Shown here: positions 646 to 8,828 of the stretch, piece by piece
Layout: every line of letters starts with the position of its first letter
How positions within the stretch are numbered: the first letter of the stretch is position 1
Assembly (NCBI RefSeq): GCF_026017845.1
Contig: NZ_CP100416.1
Span: forward strand, 9,050,334 to 9,114,333
Reading direction: 5' to 3'
DNA from: Amycolatopsis mediterranei
Lineage (GTDB): Bacteria; Actinomycetota; Actinomycetes; Mycobacteriales; Pseudonocardiaceae
Length of the DNA: 64,000 nt
Program-made: the position numbers and the translations under genes
Notes under the pieces: model-generated
What the model was told of the DNA's origin: nothing
The model's database searches: none
The model's input: the letters and a program-made list of their open reading frames with translations, nothing else

Positions 646-1389
646 ATGCCGAACGAACGCCTGCGCGACGCGCTACTGCGCAACGGCCTGACCTTGGAGC
701 AGGTCGCCAAGGCGGTTGGCGTCGATCAGAAGACGGTCGAGCGCTGGATCACCAAGAACCGGACGCCCTACCCCAAGCACCGGCACAAGATCGCCGCCAT
801 GGCGCGCGAGTCGGAGACCTACCTGTGGCCGGACTCGGTGGCCCCGGAGCGCAAGGCCGAGACGGCCGCCGCTGAGCTTGTGCAAGTCTTCCCGCACCGC
901 AACGCCGTGCCCGTTGAGCTGTGGGACCGGCTGATCAAGGAAGCAGCGGAGACCGTCGAGATCCTGGTACACGCCGCACTGTTCCTGGTAGAACGCCCGC
1001 GGTTCATCAAGGACCTCACAGCCAAGGCAGCGGCCGGCGCTCGAATCCGGCTCGCGTTCGGAGACCCCGAGGGGGACAGCGTCGCCCTTCGCGGCGAAGA
1101 GGAGCAGCTCGGCGACGGGACGCTTGCGGCGCGAATCCGCAACGCGCTGGCGTCCTACCGGCCGCTGGTCGGCGTCGACGGAGTGGAGATGCGGTTCCAC
1201 AACACGACGCTCTACAACTCGATCTTCAGGTTCGACGACGAGATGATCATCAACACGCACGTGTACGGGTTCCAGGGAGCCCACGCCCCGTCCCTCCACC
1301 TGCGAAGACTGTCCGCAGGGGACCTCTTCGAGACGTACTCGGAGAGCTTCGAGTCAGTCTGGAACCTCGCCAAGCCGGCCACCTTCTAG
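646..1389 (+). CDS. XRE-like HTH regulator with C-terminal DUF5919/PLD-like domain
   Basis: Predicted 247-residue transcription regulator. Residues about 1-45 form a helix-turn-helix (LEQVAKAVGVDQKTVERWI). The C-terminal part, from about residue 85, is an effector-like domain of the type found in many actinobacterial HTH proteins, with RIRLAFGDPEGDS and a conserved HNTTLYNSIFRFDDEMIINT block; I believe this is DUF5919, which has a phospholipase-D-like look. ATG 646 is chosen because the HTH homology starts there; frames further upstream are too long and run through the half-site array. The Nudix gene follows after 8 bases, so the two form an operon. Ligand and targets are unknown; autoregulation through the array in front is inferred. 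Confidence 0.8.
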   Translation: MPNERLRDALLRNGLTLEQVAKAVGVDQKTVERWITKNRTPYPKHRHKIAAMARESETYLWPDSVAPERKAETAAAELVQVFPHRNAVPVELWDRLIKEAAETVEILVHAALFLVERPRFIKDLTAKAAAGARIRLAFGDPEGDSVALRGEEEQLGDGTLAARIRNALASYRPLVGVDGVEMRFHNTTLYNSIFRFDDEMIINTHVYGFQGAHAPSLHLRRLSAGDLFETYSESFESVWNLAKPATF

Positions 1390-1397
1390 GAGGCAGC

Positions 1398-1868
1398 ATG
1401 ACCCGAGTCGACTACTACAACGACCCAAACGCACCCAAGGCGAACAGCATCGCAGTGGCGGTGTCCGCGTTCATCCAGGACGACGAAGGTCGGATCCTAA
1501 TGATTAGGCGCACGGACAACGACCTGTACTCCATCCCTGGCGGCCAACTGGAACTCGGCGAGACGCTAGCCCAGGCCGCAGTCCGAGAGGTCCGGGAGGA
1601 AACCGGCATCGAGTGCGAGATCGACGGCGTAATCGGCGTATATTCCAATCCTCACCACATCGTCGCCTACGACGATGGGGAGGTCCGACAGGAGTTCTCC
1701 ATCTGCTTCCGCGCATCGAAATCAGGTGGGACGTTGGCGACTAGCGAAGAGAGCAAGGAGGCCTCTTGGTTCAAGCCCAACCAGATCTCCGAACTCAACA
1801 TTCACCCCTCAATCAGACTACGGATTGAACATGCGCTAAACGAGTCACCAGAGGCCTATTTTTCCTGA
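1398..1868 (+). CDS. Nudix hydrolase
   Basis: A 156-residue Nudix-family pyrophosphohydrolase with an intact Nudix box (GQLELGETLAQAAVREVR then EETGI), so the metal-binding and catalytic glutamates are present. The ribosome site GGAGGC lies 5 bases before ATG 1398, overlapping the end of the HTH gene. The substrate cannot be told from sequence. The regulator plus Nudix pair recurs across actinobacteria. In the Streptomyces element pSAM2 a Nudix protein (Pif) gives immunity against redundant transfer, which makes a mobile-element role possible here, but nothing in the sequence proves it. Confidence 0.88.
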   Translation: MTRVDYYNDPNAPKANSIAVAVSAFIQDDEGRILMIRRTDNDLYSIPGGQLELGETLAQAAVREVREETGIECEIDGVIGVYSNPHHIVAYDDGEVRQEFSICFRASKSGGTLATSEESKEASWFKPNQISELNIHPSIRLRIEHALNESPEAYFS

Positions 1869-1873
1869 TATCA

Positions 1874-2617
1874 CTAAGCTTTCTTGTTCGCTGCGGATGA
1901 CGTCGACCAGCGAGATCGCAAATCGTCAGCTTTCCTGTTAAGCCTCTTAGCAAAATGAAGCAAAAATAGGACATATCTCGCAACATCTTCACCGGTTGGC
2001 TTACGATCCATGTTGCCATGAGCGATGTCGTTTCTGCATTCCACTATATCTCGAAGTCGAACTCTGATAGAGTGAGATTCTTCCAGTTCAGACTCTTGAT
2101 CAATAACATCGATTTCGCCATCGCAGACTGGGTTTCCGGATCCAAGCGTAAAGAAGATCCGATCAATACACTCGCTATCTGCGTTATGAACTTCACGCGA
2201 GACGATTTGTGCTCGCAGAGTCCCCCGAGGGGGCTTTGCGCTATCGTTCCATAAACTCGACACCGCCCCAAGTTTGGACATCAAAGAAAACCGTTGGTTC
2301 ACATCACCGCAGCTCACAACTTCCGACAACTTAGGCAATATATGAAGCTCCCGAACCCCCCGGGGTATTTCTTTTGCCGGGAGCGATTGGCTATCGAGAT
2401 CGTCGACCAGTTCCTCAACAAGCTCCTTGAGGAACCCCTCAAAATGACTCACAAGCAAGACGACTGCCGCACGGCGCGTAGTAGCCATAAGGCCAGCGCT
2501 CGTTGAACTCTCCGCTCCAAGTTCTCCATCGCCCACACCTGACTGATCTCTGACATCAATAGACAACAAGCCGCGAACTTCCTCGATGCCAGCATTAAAA
2601 CTATCGATTGCAGCCAT
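1874..2617 (-). CDS. HEPN-domain protein (MAE_28990/MAE_18760-like), probable RNase effector
   Basis: A 247-residue all-helical protein. Near the end it carries the HEPN signature Rx4H as RNDIAHG at residues 195-201, which is the catalytic RNase motif of HEPN toxins. The N-terminal helices (VVLLVSHFEGFLKELVEELV) fit the MAE_28990/MAE_18760 HEPN families. ATG 2617 is separated by one base from the stop of the DUF262 gene, so translation is coupled. Local G+C is near half, well below the 70-75% of neighbouring genes, indicating acquisition. It is the likely effector of a two-gene defence or toxin module; the family call comes from motif and partner only. Confidence 0.75.
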   Translation of the reverse strand: MAAIDSFNAGIEEVRGLLSIDVRDQSGVGDGELGAESSTSAGLMATTRRAAVVLLVSHFEGFLKELVEELVDDLDSQSLPAKEIPRGVRELHILPKLSEVVSCGDVNQRFSLMSKLGAVSSLWNDSAKPPRGTLRAQIVSREVHNADSECIDRIFFTLGSGNPVCDGEIDVIDQESELEESHSIRVRLRDIVECRNDIAHGNMDRKPTGEDVARYVLFLLHFAKRLNRKADDLRSRWSTSSAANKKA

Positions 2618-2618
2618 C

Positions 2619-3743
2619 CTAGCCGCTCAGGTCCGGGAGGTTAACGTCAATTCCAATTGACCGCAGAGCTTCTGCAAATTTTCCTACCCGCAAATGCATC
2701 CGAGTCTTATCAGCAGTTGCTCGACCAATCGACGTCAGGAAATCTTCGTCACGAAGTAGCTCCTCCCTGATCTCCCTGATTTTTGCAGACTTTCGCACAA
2801 GAGCTTTCTTGTCTGCAAAAGCGGCGGGAATCATGATACTGTCGAAGAGCGCCTTATTGACGTTTCGATGAGCTTTCCCATCGCGCCCCACAACCCTAAA
2901 CGCCCCATCGCCAAGAGCTTCATATACAGCATCACATGTCGATTCGAACATCTTTAGTTCACGACTCGTGGTCGCCCTATGGCGATTCTTTCTGATATGC
3001 GAGTTCAAGAACTGTCGCAGCGGAGGCTTATACAGCTCCACACCACTAGTGAGCGCAAGGAAGCGCAGGACCAATTCTTCATGATCCATGCGACTATTAC
3101 TATCAGAACCAAGCAGTCGTAAGAGTGATCGGTTTTTAGCCATGCTCTTAAGCGAATCGTTAAATTCCCCGCGATATATACAGTTCCTCAACTCTTGAGC
3201 AGTCAGGCTTGCAGCCCCGGTGTTCAATCGCTCGAAGACATCAAACTTGATGTCCGGATGACTTTCCTCGGTAATGACAATGCAGCGTATAGTTCGATTC
3301 TCTAGCCGACGCTGATCACGAGGTGCGAGGTCGTCGTAGAATTTACCCTCCAGTTCCTTCAAAACCGAGATCCCACTCAAGGAGAATTTGTTTTTGAGAA
3401 ATCGACTGATGGTTGTCAGCCTCTGAAGACCATCGATTACCTCGTAGCTGCCGTCTTCATCCTCCGCAAAATAACAGACAGGAATCGGCACATTCAAGAG
3501 CAACGACTCGATTAGACGGCTGGCTTTAGATTGATCCCAGACATACTTCCTTTGGTATTCAATCGCAAGCTTTAGTCGACCTCTTGCGATGTCATCCGAA
3601 ATACCCTTGACACCAAGATCATAAGGCTGAGTGACTAGCTTTCGATCGTCCGTTGACAGATCCAACGGTTCCGCTTGGTCGCGAGCACTGTCAAGTTCGT
3701 CTTCAGAATCGAACTCGTCGACATCAGGTAGCTGATCTGTCAC
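2619..3743 (-). CDS. DUF262 (GmrSD N-domain/ParB-like) protein
   Basis: A 374-residue protein with a DUF262 domain. IEYQRKYVWDQSKASRLIES (residues 61-80) and NVPIPVCYF precede the signature DGLQRLTTI at 104-112, the ParB/Srx-like nucleotide-binding motif seen in GmrS, DndB-like and BrxU proteins. The rest is helical and shows no HNH (DUF1524) nuclease motif, so this is not a complete GmrSD enzyme; the nuclease would be the coupled HEPN protein. The start is GTG 3743 with AAGGA six bases upstream. A sampled 60-base line has 42% G+C and another 55%, against 75% in kgd. Likely role: sensing or NTPase part of an anti-phage module (inference). Confidence 0.82.
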   Translation of the reverse strand: MTDQLPDVDEFDSEDELDSARDQAEPLDLSTDDRKLVTQPYDLGVKGISDDIARGRLKLAIEYQRKYVWDQSKASRLIESLLLNVPIPVCYFAEDEDGSYEVIDGLQRLTTISRFLKNKFSLSGISVLKELEGKFYDDLAPRDQRRLENRTIRCIVITEESHPDIKFDVFERLNTGAASLTAQELRNCIYRGEFNDSLKSMAKNRSLLRLLGSDSNSRMDHEELVLRFLALTSGVELYKPPLRQFLNSHIRKNRHRATTSRELKMFESTCDAVYEALGDGAFRVVGRDGKAHRNVNKALFDSIMIPAAFADKKALVRKSAKIREIREELLRDEDFLTSIGRATADKTRMHLRVGKFAEALRSIGIDVNLPDLSG

Positions 3744-3814
3744 GTCTATCCTTCTGCATTGAATCTGAGTTTCGTAACCGACATCATTGCCGAACTTGGC
3801 TCTATGGGATCAAG

Positions 3815-3839
3815 GGCGCGCCGCCGTCGGCGGCGCGCC
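3815..3839. repeat. perfect 11-base inverted repeat, 3-base loop
   Basis: GGCGCGCCGCC at 3815-3825 is followed by GTC and the exact reverse complement at 3829-3839. The hairpin lies at the point where base composition changes from AT-rich to chromosomal. It could be a terminator for a lost gene or an element boundary; there is no T-run. Confidence 0.6.
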
Positions 3840-4086
3840 TGTCGCCCTACGTAGCCCCTCGCCTTGGCGGCCGCCTCCGCTTCCGACACGGCGGGCTGCC
3901 GCTCCGCCCGCCCGCCCGGCCGCCACCGGGTCACCTGGCGCAGCGCCGCGCGGCGGCGGCACACCGGTCCCCTGAGCCAACGTCGGCCTCCTCTACGAGC
4001 GCTCGTGCCATTCGGGTCGTTCGTGACTCGATCTCCGTTACGCACCGTCGTGGGGGACCTCCATCCCGACGCCTGATCGTGACAAC

Positions 4087-4142
4087 GGCCGGTAGCACCG
4101 CGTCAAGACGATGAAGCGTGTCTTGACCCGGCACCACCGGCC
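4087..4142. repeat. 23-base imperfect inverted repeat
   Basis: The arms are 4087-4109 and 4120-4142, with a 10-base loop. The inner eight bases (GTCAAGAC/GTCTTGAC) and the outer seven (GGCCGGT/ACCGGCC) pair perfectly, and only about four internal positions mismatch. No gene touches it. It may be a remnant of a transposable-element end or a regulatory hairpin; I cannot assign it. Confidence 0.55.
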
Positions 4143-4313
4143 GCGTACTGGCTTCATATCGGGATGCAGGGACAGGTGTGGCCGAGCGCCAGGCCGTGCC
4201 CAGGCCGTCAGAGGCCGAGGAGCAGCGACAGACGACGAGAACTAACGAGACGCATCAGCGCAGCTCAGAGGCCGTTTACGGCCAAGATCGTAAGGTCGGC
4301 GAAGACCGGCTGA

Positions 4314-4406
4314 GAGATTCTGGACATCTTCGAGGGCACGCAGCAGATTCAGCAGCTGATCGTCGCCAGGCGGATCCTCGGCAAGACGTCAGCTGAGCTC
4401 AAGTAG
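4314..4406 (+). pseudogene. relic of acyl-CoA dehydrogenase 3' end
   Basis: Codons from 4314 to the TAG at 4404-4406 read EILDIFEGTQQIQQLIVARR and end ILGKTSAELK. This is the C-terminal segment of acyl-CoA dehydrogenases: IFEGTQQIQ is the conserved block containing the family EGT motif, followed by the terminal helix. An in-frame TGA precedes it at 4311-4313, and the upstream frame has no dehydrogenase similarity that I can see. Only the last 30 or so residues survive, still followed by an intact terminator at 4410. The rest of the gene was presumably removed by the event that brought in or rearranged the sequence to the left. Confidence 0.72.
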
Positions 4407-4448: not shown

Positions 4449-5504
4449 TCAAGAGATCTGATCGTCCAGGAACTGGTCCAGGTACCGCCACGTCGTGCCC
4501 CGCGCCTTCCGGCCCGTCAAGACGCCCAGGTGCCCACCCGGCGCTGTCTTGAAGCGGACCTCTGGGGCCTTGTCCAGCAGCTCCACCACGCGCTCGACCG
4601 ACGGCCGGGGCGCGATTGTGTCGTTCTCGCCCGCCACCACCAGGGTCGGCACGCGGACCGAGGACAGCGAGATGATCCGGCCGTTCAGGTCCACCTTGCC
4701 CTCCGCCAGGTCGTTCGTGCGGAACAGGCGGTGGTACAGCTGGCCGAACGTGCGCCCCGGGTACGCGTACATGTTGCTCATGAAGTGGTCGACCGCCTCG
4801 ATCTGGGCCAGATAATCCCGGTCGTCGAGGTGGGACAGGATCGCCAGGGGTTTCGTGATTTCCTTGCTGATGCCCGTCGCGCGGAACACGCGGCTGACCA
4901 AATAGGACGGTGCGCCGCCGAACACGCGATAGATCGGCGTGAGCAGGTGGCCGTTCGTGAGGTCGACCAGCGGGCGGAACGGGGCCACGATCGGGATGGC
5001 CGTGAAGTCCACCGGCGAGCCGATCGCGGTGATCGACGCGATCGGCAGGTCCGGCCGGTCGGCGTTCACCAGCAGCGAGAAGATCCCGCCGAGCGACCAC
5101 GACACCAGGTGCACGTCCTGGCCGCCGGCGTCCGCGCTCACGCGCCGGATCGCGCGGGGCAGCACCTCGTCGATCCAGTGCTCGATGCCCAGGCGCCGGT
5201 CGGAGAACGCCACCGTGCCGTAGTCGACGAGGTAGGTGTTGCGGCCGCCCTCGATGAGGTGCTCGATGAGGCTGCAGCCGCGGCGCAGGTCGAAGCAGAT
5301 CGCCGGTGCGGCCAGCGGTGGCACCAGCAGGATCGGCGGCCCGGACACCGTCCCGCCGCGGTGCGTCATCCGGTACAGCGAGCGGTTGGGGCCCTGGTCG
5401 ATCAGCACCCGCGGCATCGGGCGCAGGTCGGCGACGCCGCCGTGCAGCACCTTGCCGACCACGTTCGACGCCGCGGCGGCCAGCCGTGCGGGTGGTGAAA
5501 CCAT
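4449..5504 (-). CDS. alpha/beta hydrolase, PhaC-like
   Basis: A 351-residue alpha/beta-fold hydrolase resembling the class of PHA-synthase-like proteins: PILLVPPLAAPAICFDLRRG near residue 60, the nucleophile elbow SWSLGG (serine, where true PHA synthases have cysteine), the acid in AGENDTIAP and the histidine in PGGHLG. It is therefore more likely an esterase/acyl hydrolase than a polymer synthase. ATG 5504 is chosen because GGGAGG lies at the right distance; an earlier ATG would add 30 residues unlike the family. It is followed on the same strand, upstream, by an SDR gene. No signal peptide is seen. Confidence 0.82.
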   Translation of the reverse strand: MVSPPARLAAAASNVVGKVLHGGVADLRPMPRVLIDQGPNRSLYRMTHRGGTVSGPPILLVPPLAAPAICFDLRRGCSLIEHLIEGGRNTYLVDYGTVAFSDRRLGIEHWIDEVLPRAIRRVSADAGGQDVHLVSWSLGGIFSLLVNADRPDLPIASITAIGSPVDFTAIPIVAPFRPLVDLTNGHLLTPIYRVFGGAPSYLVSRVFRATGISKEITKPLAILSHLDDRDYLAQIEAVDHFMSNMYAYPGRTFGQLYHRLFRTNDLAEGKVDLNGRIISLSSVRVPTLVVAGENDTIAPRPSVERVVELLDKAPEVRFKTAPGGHLGVLTGRKARGTTWRYLDQFLDDQIS

Positions 5505-5613
5505 TTCTCGTGCCTCCCAAAAGCGGATCCGGAGGCAATCTTGCCGGGCCGGGCGGGCGGACTCAACCGCACCACACCCGCAAGCACCTGGCAAGCACGT
5601 CCAATTCGGACAG

Positions 5614-8492: not shown

Positions 8493-8828
8493 GTGGTTTC
8501 CGGAGCAGGTTTTTCGGTCGACCCGGCCGAGCTGCAGAAGTTCAGCCAGTTCCTGTCGGGCACCACGCAACCGGCGGTGCAGGACGCCGCGAACCGGATG
8601 CAGGCCGCCAACGGGTTCGACAACGCCGCGTTCGGCATCCTGCTCGCGCAGGTGCTCGCGGTGCCCTCACGGGTCACGATGGCGGTGATCACCGGTGAGA
8701 TCAACAAGCTCGTCGGGGACATCGGCAAGTCCGCGGCCGACGTGAAGAAGGCCGCCGACACGTACGCGACCCACGACTCGAACACGGCACAGGGTTTGAG
8801 CACCTTCGAGACGGAGCTGGGCAAGTGA
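8493..8828 (+). CDS. ESX-excreted (WXG100-like) protein, 111 aa
   Basis: A small helical protein of the size and layout of ESX/type VII secreted partners: helix AELQKFSQFLSGTTQPAVQDAA, a hydrophobic middle, then the helix VGDIGKSAADVKKAADTYA. The tail DTYATHDSNTAQGLSTFE resembles the C-terminal export region of excreted ESX targets. No signal peptide is present, as expected for that route. The GTG start has GGAGGAG nine bases upstream. The stop overlaps the start of the next gene by four bases (GTGA), so it is probably the partner of the 439-residue protein. Confidence 0.78.
   Translation: MVSGAGFSVDPAELQKFSQFLSGTTQPAVQDAANRMQAANGFDNAAFGILLAQVLAVPSRVTMAVITGEINKLVGDIGKSAADVKKAADTYATHDSNTAQGLSTFETELGK

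Follow-up and report, generated by a model that had tools for sequence, protein, structure and literature searches.

The gene pair described here lies near the start of a stretch of 64,000 nucleotides from Amycolatopsis mediterranei (contig NZ_CP100416.1, positions 9,050,334 to 9,114,333), the whole of which is referred to as the window. It comprises a gene for a DUF262 protein and a gene for a HEPN protein resembling RNases (Table 1), with base 2618 as the sole spacer between the two frames in the list of open reading frames (ORFs), both of which are open. The ORFs and translations confirm the two-gene coupling, one-base gap, coordinates and motifs given in an initial annotation, which had proposed the pair as a candidate defence system. 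The pair is a real, intact-looking and probably defensive unit.

PF03235 (GmrSD_N, E 2.2e-29) is the sole Pfam family in the DUF262 protein at E<=1, with no match to DUF1524 or HNH at that threshold, in keeping with the earlier view that this protein lacks a nuclease domain; a hidden DUF1524 domain is rejected at the level of sequence. The translation contains the pocket motifs Q64-R65...W69 and D104-G105-L-Q107-R108 (DGLQR, residues 104-108), and the best relatives in the PDB are themselves DUF262 proteins, aligned over short stretches only. The best PADLOC profile is NsnA (PDLC03877, E 4.6e-85, 284.2 bits, residues 18-363), the Nsn proteins presumably being those of Menshen, and PD-T4-2_A is matched as well (E 3.2e-49, 165.9 bits). 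The HEPN protein matches PF18735 (RiboL-PSP-HEPN, E 2.1e-18) and PF18737 (E 2.1e-10), the fold being assigned by profile only, and the sequence RNDIAHG at residues 195-201 contains the R-x4-H motif of HEPN RNases (RNDIAH); the R-x4-H residues of HEPN proteins are those of RNases. The G+C content of the pair is 49.3%, compared with 64.3% in the kilobase to the left of the cassette that holds it, which agrees with the low G+C remarked upon previously, and lies at 48-52% in 500-base segments starting at positions 1751-3251.

Table 1. Features at the locus, in window coordinates.
Feature	Position	Strand	Size or remark	Evidence
DUF262 (GmrSD_N, ParB/Srx-like) gene	2619..3743	-	374 aa, GTG start	PF03235, PADLOC profiles
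HEPN RNase-like gene	1874..2617	-	247 aa	PF18735, PF18737, R195-N-D-I-A-H200
Exchangeable low-G+C cassette	1715..3787	.	2,073 bp, 49.1% G+C; left edge inside NUDIX gene	blastn against nine sister slots
HTH (XRE-like) and DUF5919 regulator gene	646..1389	+		PF19319 5.9e-06, over cut-off; HTH_3 1.1e-04, just below cut-off
NUDIX hydrolase gene, resembling Pif in family and location	1398..1868	+		PF00293 1e-22
Conserved segment between cassette and attachment site	3788..4314	.		matched in 9/9 sister slots
attR-like right repeat	4315..4406	+	92 bp of the 3' end of the acyl-CoA dehydrogenase gene	
Abhydrolase gene	4449..5594	-	chromosomal flank outside the element	in 80/80 genus genomes

Pairing of DUF262 with HEPN is found far beyond chance. 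A seed alignment of seven DUF262 proteins, all HEPN-partnered, was used to scan a genome and a viral collection, giving 436 and 136 relatives, respectively, the best 80 of each being analysed (160 loci in total). The directly downstream gene was classed by script, the HNH and ATPase classes being pattern-based (the HNH of L126 by pattern alone), and four loci (L043, L114, L148, and L179) were placed in the HEPN class by hand, an over-long ORF start having hidden the partner. HEPN lies directly downstream in 132/160 loci (65/80 genome, 67/80 viral), across phyla, which upholds the initial annotation's treatment of the pair as a module, and the intergenic gap is 30 bp or less, or an overlap, in 125 of the 128 loci where it was measured. 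PF18735 was matched by 64/71 downstream proteins from the genome set (70 loci and the window) and by 64/73 viral ones. An HNH pattern is fused to the DUF262 C-terminus in 8/160 loci (6 genome, 2 viral) and never occurs together with HEPN (0/160), suggesting that HEPN stands where a nuclease otherwise stands. A Menshen-type ATPase gene is the partner in 6/160 loci (0 genome, 6 viral), and partners of the NsnB type were found in 6/73 downstream proteins of the viral collection and in one relative from the genus (L005). Nine of the 80 genome loci, all from one cyanobacterial clade, have no recognised partner, and the remaining viral loci are four cut by the contig end and one (L192) without a resolved partner.

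The pair is also carried by mobile DNA. On a Bradyrhizobium plasmid the two genes are 1 bp apart and follow genes for an N-6 methylase and a hypothetical protein, and annotated plasmid pairs occur in Acinetobacter baumannii and Klebsiella aerogenes. The P2-like phage P2_4B2 has a DUF262-HEPN pair, and the partner in E. coli prophages is annotated in RefSeq as "MAE_28990/MAE_18760 family HEPN-like nuclease". Counter-examples on plasmids are a DUF262 gene with an AAA ATPase in K. pneumoniae and one without an annotated partner directly behind it in Nostoc. The window's HEPN protein had no match among plasmids at E<=1e-5, and a search of E. coli DNA with four pairs gave no match.

The active-site residues of HEPN, within the RNase motif recognised previously, and the pocket residues of DUF262 are conserved. 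R195 and H200 of HEPN are invariant in 61/61 aligned partners and E60 in 60/61, and Q64, R65, W69, D104, G105, Q107, and R108 of DUF262 (position 106 excepted) are invariant in 61/61 aligned proteins. Because both 61-row sets were drawn from HEPN-partnered loci, leaving out many near relatives and truncated or fragmentary partners (e.g., L066, L076, and L089 in the HEPN alignment), this invariance shows constraint within the family, not breadth. On a DUF262 tree of 158 rows the partner label, with the nine cyanobacterial loci labelled "none", changes 5 times, compared with a mean of 22.6 when labels are shuffled (0/200 shuffles as low), and the ATPase-partnered rows and the orphan rows each form one side of a branch. 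The addition of 13 rows gave a tree of 171 rows with 7 partner changes. The window falls in a starred set made up wholly of HEPN-partnered rows (12 rows in the smaller tree, 13 in the larger), its nearest row in the larger tree being from Micromonospora (72% identity). The trees were built in quick mode and have long branches, and the placement of L230 and L214 is unsure.

From sequence comparison, the pair reads as cargo of a decayed pSAM2-like actinomycete integrative and conjugative element (AICE) integrated at the 3' terminus of a gene for an acyl-CoA dehydrogenase. A left copy of the repeat, 90.2% identical to the right copy, lies at window position -3627 to -3536 (L217 14707-14798) and forms the 3' end of an intact dehydrogenase gene (L217 13593-14798, Acyl-CoA_dh). 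Three of the 69 remaining genus genomes were checked for an empty site (G051, G008, and G064), and in the first two (L237 and L238) the dehydrogenase gene adjoins the abhydrolase gene, whilst in G064 (L239) about 0.9 kb lies between them, which is not a clean empty site. Between the two genes in L239, a 76-bp piece (8715-8790) is 94.7% identical to window positions 4021-4096, in the right segment of the element, and is perhaps an excision scar.

An integrase-like frame directly follows the dehydrogenase gene in 4/5 relatives with the element, and in the fifth (L240) a TIR gene intervenes, followed by a shorter frame whose start matches that of the integrases. This TIR gene (L240 1937-2830) encodes a CAP12/Pycsar-type effector (PF10137, 3.7e-25) and marks a second cargo place. 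The sole relative scanned with Pfam, L243, encodes a tyrosine integrase, a pSAM2-type RepSA and an FtsK/SpoIIIE protein, a set not found in the readable part of the window copy's flank, of which some ORFs were scanned. Only about 3.6 kb separates the dehydrogenase stop from window position 75, and this interval includes an IS3-type transposase gene (L217 16927-18216, PF00665 6.9e-17); the window copy is considered decayed because of that gene and because too little room is left for integration, replication and transfer genes. Position 75 itself is rejected as the left end of the element, being the end of the IS3-type insertion, the real left end being the dehydrogenase repeat. Direct repeats at a gene 3' end and genes of the nud and xre types are shared with pSAM2-like AICEs. 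Pif-type NUDIX genes and nud-xre clusters are described as AICE genes (PMC3218068), and anti-phage cargo in AICEs has been reported in general terms (PMC9513070).

Within the element, the pair occupies a slot whose content differs between species. In ten genomes of the genus, including that of the window, no more than 10 kb separates the HTH/DUF5919 gene from the abhydrolase gene, and an eleventh (G048) retains HTH remnants only. By blastn, the left conserved block ends at window position 1714-1715 in 8/9 sister slots (1816 in L236), and the right block starts at 3783-3788 in 9/9. Across the ten slots measured, cassettes have 48.8-52.0% G+C, compared with 61.7-64.6% to their left. Towards its 3' end (window 1715-1868 and equivalents), the NUDIX gene diverges together with the cassette, its bases there still alike by eye, as if the exchange breakpoints fell inside this gene, and homologous exchange between the flanks would be the simplest reading of how cassettes are swapped.

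Ten further species of the genus carry different cassettes at this position. L231 has Thoeris genes (ThsA E 1.5e-120, ThsB E 7.5e-83) and L236 a locus with a match to the Lamassu protein LmuB (E 1e-77), which gives the slot a defence context. Another DUF262-HEPN pair is found in L235, ParA/AAA_31 with HEPN in L228, and DUF5343 with Ymh in L232, L233 being alike by sequence but not profile-scanned. In L230 (2628-4598) a DUF262 protein of 340 aa is directly followed by a 315-aa protein with a RelA/SpoT domain (PF04607, E 1.9e-10). L234 (1931-3409) matches only the PADLOC candidate model PDC-M36A; L229 (1898-3478) encodes two proteins, one without a Pfam or PADLOC match and the other without a Pfam match; and L245 (3161-5070) has an ATPase and a PIN-like protein, recognised by eye only. 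The cassettes of these last three slots are candidate defence systems.

The reading favoured here, with moderate confidence, is that the DUF262 and HEPN genes form an anti-phage (or anti-mobile-element) pair, the defence cassette of the decayed AICE, with HEPN predicted to be an RNase effector and DUF262 its trigger. A defence role appears well supported because sister slots hold Thoeris and Lamassu-like systems, the pair is conserved, the active sites are invariant, and PD-T4-2 offers a precedent. Abortive infection driven by an RNase, as proposed in the initial annotation, is the predicted, and likely, mode of action; that DUF262 senses modified DNA, also put forward there, is an inference. 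Infection would be sensed through the DUF262 protein, a putative NTP-binding (nucleoside triphosphate-binding) sensor or switch with a ParB/Srx-like pocket and no nuclease domain found, and binding or hydrolysis of NTP would free or activate the HEPN protein, possibly through contact of the two proteins. As the effector, HEPN would cleave RNA by means of R195 and H200 and so stop the phage, a response that would probably cost the cell its life. The exchange of HEPN for a fused HNH suggests that HEPN is the effector and DUF262 a trigger rather than a mere antitoxin, and an NTP-dependent trigger would follow the analogy of GmrSD, BrxU, and SspE, which are treated in a review of such systems (PMC10952713).

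Several observations weigh against this interpretation of a defensive HEPN RNase. The seeds were all HEPN-partnered, so the 132/160 count describes near relatives, not DUF262 at large. In a sample with less bias, made up of 27 distinct DUF262 loci of the window's genus from 21/80 genomes (the window's included), a HEPN profile match lies downstream in 14/27; the rest are two with the R-x4-H motif only, one RelA/SpoT, one Menshen-type ATPase, and 9/27 without an assigned partner. The nine cyanobacterial relatives (L052 and L054-L061) have neighbours without HEPN, HNH or ATPase. The HEPN alignment is poorly conserved (mean column identity 24%), no solved HEPN relative in the PDB is convincing (the best being Csm6, E 0.11), and the window's HEPN protein does not match the PD-T4-2_B profile (PDLC04028) in PADLOC at E<=1. 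The decay of the host element means, in addition, that the pair may be in the course of being lost, though its frames are open.

The closest competitor to a defence role is an addiction (toxin-antitoxin) module ensuring that the integrative element is retained, with HEPN as toxin, DUF262 as antitoxin, and phage defence absent or secondary. The tight two-gene layout with a toxin-like HEPN second, on a mobile element, would suit such a module, as would the ParA-HEPN dyad in the same slot elsewhere, a sort proposed as toxin-antitoxin in a computational survey (Anantharaman et al., 2013; PMC3710099). It is nevertheless rather unlikely, since sister slots also house the dedicated defence systems, HNH nucleases or Menshen-type ATPases replace HEPN beside the same DUF262 family, and the PD-T4-2 precedent is anti-phage (PMC9519451).

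Membership of the GmrSD_N family would also be in line with modification-dependent restriction, in which DUF262 recognises modified phage DNA as in GmrSD, BrxU, and SspE, HEPN is auxiliary or DNase-like, and the cells survive. HNH-fused relatives exist, a DNA cytosine methyltransferase is the neighbour of the P2-like relatives from E. coli, and the Bradyrhizobium pair has its N-6 DNA methylase. The window's DUF262 protein, however, has no HNH or DUF1524 match, the cassette consists of two genes only, neither a methylase, and the HEPN residues are those of RNases, making restriction distinctly improbable. Least credible, and very unlikely indeed, is that the pair keeps out competing conjugative elements and not phages, acting jointly with the Pif-like NUDIX gene; Pif, the NUDIX protein of pSAM2, has a part in conjugal immunity (PMC3218068), and the 3' portion of the NUDIX gene co-varies with the cassette, but the stretches examined at 11 other actinobacterial DUF262 loci had no match to the window's NUDIX or HTH protein in 11/11 cases (one of them, L219, has an FtsK-type match), and plasmids, prophages and the genomes of many phyla also carry the pair.

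Returning to defence by the DUF262-HEPN pair, its nearest precedent is PD-T4-2, which likewise consists of two genes, adjacent or overlapping, with DUF262 first and HEPN second (Vassallo et al., 2022). In E. coli it is an anti-T4 system, and T4 plaquing increases when it is deleted from ECOR65 (PMC9519451); a review lists it under both DUF262 and the PF18735 HEPN (PMC10952713). The initial annotation set the pair apart from GmrSD by its nuclease being on a separate chain; that this would make it different from all known systems is rejected, PD-T4-2 having been published as DUF262 with HEPN. On the basis of profiles, homologues and descriptions of PD-T4-2, the window pair is akin to PD-T4-2 without being a proven member: gene order and motif agree, but assignment to PD-T4-2 proper is rejected because the PD-T4-2_B profile is unmatched. 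The DUF262 protein is nearer NsnA (284 bits) than PD-T4-2_A (166 bits).

A PD-T4-2_B homologue of 168 aa, shorter than the window's HEPN protein (247 aa), was found at L214 (RNRAAH, PADLOC E 8.3e-51), where it lies at, and overlaps, the end of a DUF262 gene encoding 373 aa; it comes from the class of a Sphingobacterium record (G095), in which 2/295 genomes matched PD-T4-2_B. The DUF262 protein of L214 sits on a long branch, with at most 31% identity to any other row of the tree. A second, weaker match (L215, E 4.0e-5) has RNNFAH and stands behind DUF262. In a search of eight proteins only, the HEPN profile of the window family finds the partners of L214 (E 4.5e-05) and L215 (E 1.2e-19). PD-T4-2_B was found in 0/7 and 0/30 genomes or records with related DUF262 loci, and in 0/394 from the order of a Psychromonas record (G089), and the best PD-T4-2_A match in 148 genomes of that order also reaches only 164 bits.

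The NsnA profile is shared with Menshen, in which an nsnA-type DUF262 is accompanied by ATPase and OLD-like partners. The Menshen partner is, however, the ATPase NsnB (DUF3696), whereas that of the window is HEPN, and no NsnB-type ATPase lies beside the window's DUF262 gene, which is flanked by HEPN and, in the other direction, by the conserved segment and then the abhydrolase gene; Menshen is rejected on this ground. No third Menshen gene (nuclease/OLD-like) is present among the cassette ORFs of at least 80 aa (two only, 1715-3787), NsnC not having been sought elsewhere in the genome. Among the matches listed in a literature search for nsnA/nsnB, none was about defence by its title. GmrSD, BrxU, and SspE share the DUF262 domain with its D-G-x-Q-R motif but carry a DUF1524 HNH nuclease, to which the window protein has no match. 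The operons of Ribo L-PSP-HEPN or MAE_28990 with ParB (Anantharaman et al., 2013) involve the same HEPN families as the window and were tabulated as "operon with ParB" and "In operon with a ParB nuclease and DNA methylase genes" (PMC3710099); that study is a computational note in which the partner is called a ParB nuclease, and an AICE slot does not figure in the sections consulted.

The pair thus belongs to an already known kind, and what is new is its setting as an AICE cassette and the exchange of partners around DUF262. PD-T4-2, proven but mechanistically unexplained in the parts of the literature consulted, is seen to have far more relatives, spread across phyla. Through the exchange of partners (HEPN, HNH, ATPase, and perhaps RelA/SpoT) the function of DUF262 becomes a testable question, and the AICE slot is a place to look for actinomycete defence genes, several of its cassettes matching only PADLOC candidate (PDC) models or nothing. 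More tentatively, and with less than even confidence, NsnA-like DUF262 might be a general NTP-driven trigger for interchangeable killers (fused HNH, HEPN RNase, Menshen ATPase, and the RelA/SpoT synthetase of L230), which AICEs of the genus would circulate, alongside Lamassu-like systems and Thoeris, in the form of exchangeable cassettes placed after a Pif-like immunity gene and before the attachment site. The RelA/SpoT protein, found at this one locus, is possibly an alarmone-type effector under a DUF262 trigger; among the matches listed in the literature, none concerned a DUF262-SpoT pair by title or the start of the abstract.

The genome of the window has a second DUF262 locus (L219 7387-8589; L026 2639-3166), in which the DUF262 gene is followed by one for a 175-aa protein with RNKLVH, similar in size to PD-T4-2_B. 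In the search of eight proteins this partner reached E 0.069 with the HEPN profile of the window family, which falls short of the inclusion threshold. A tRNA-Thr gene lies about 2 kb beyond this locus.

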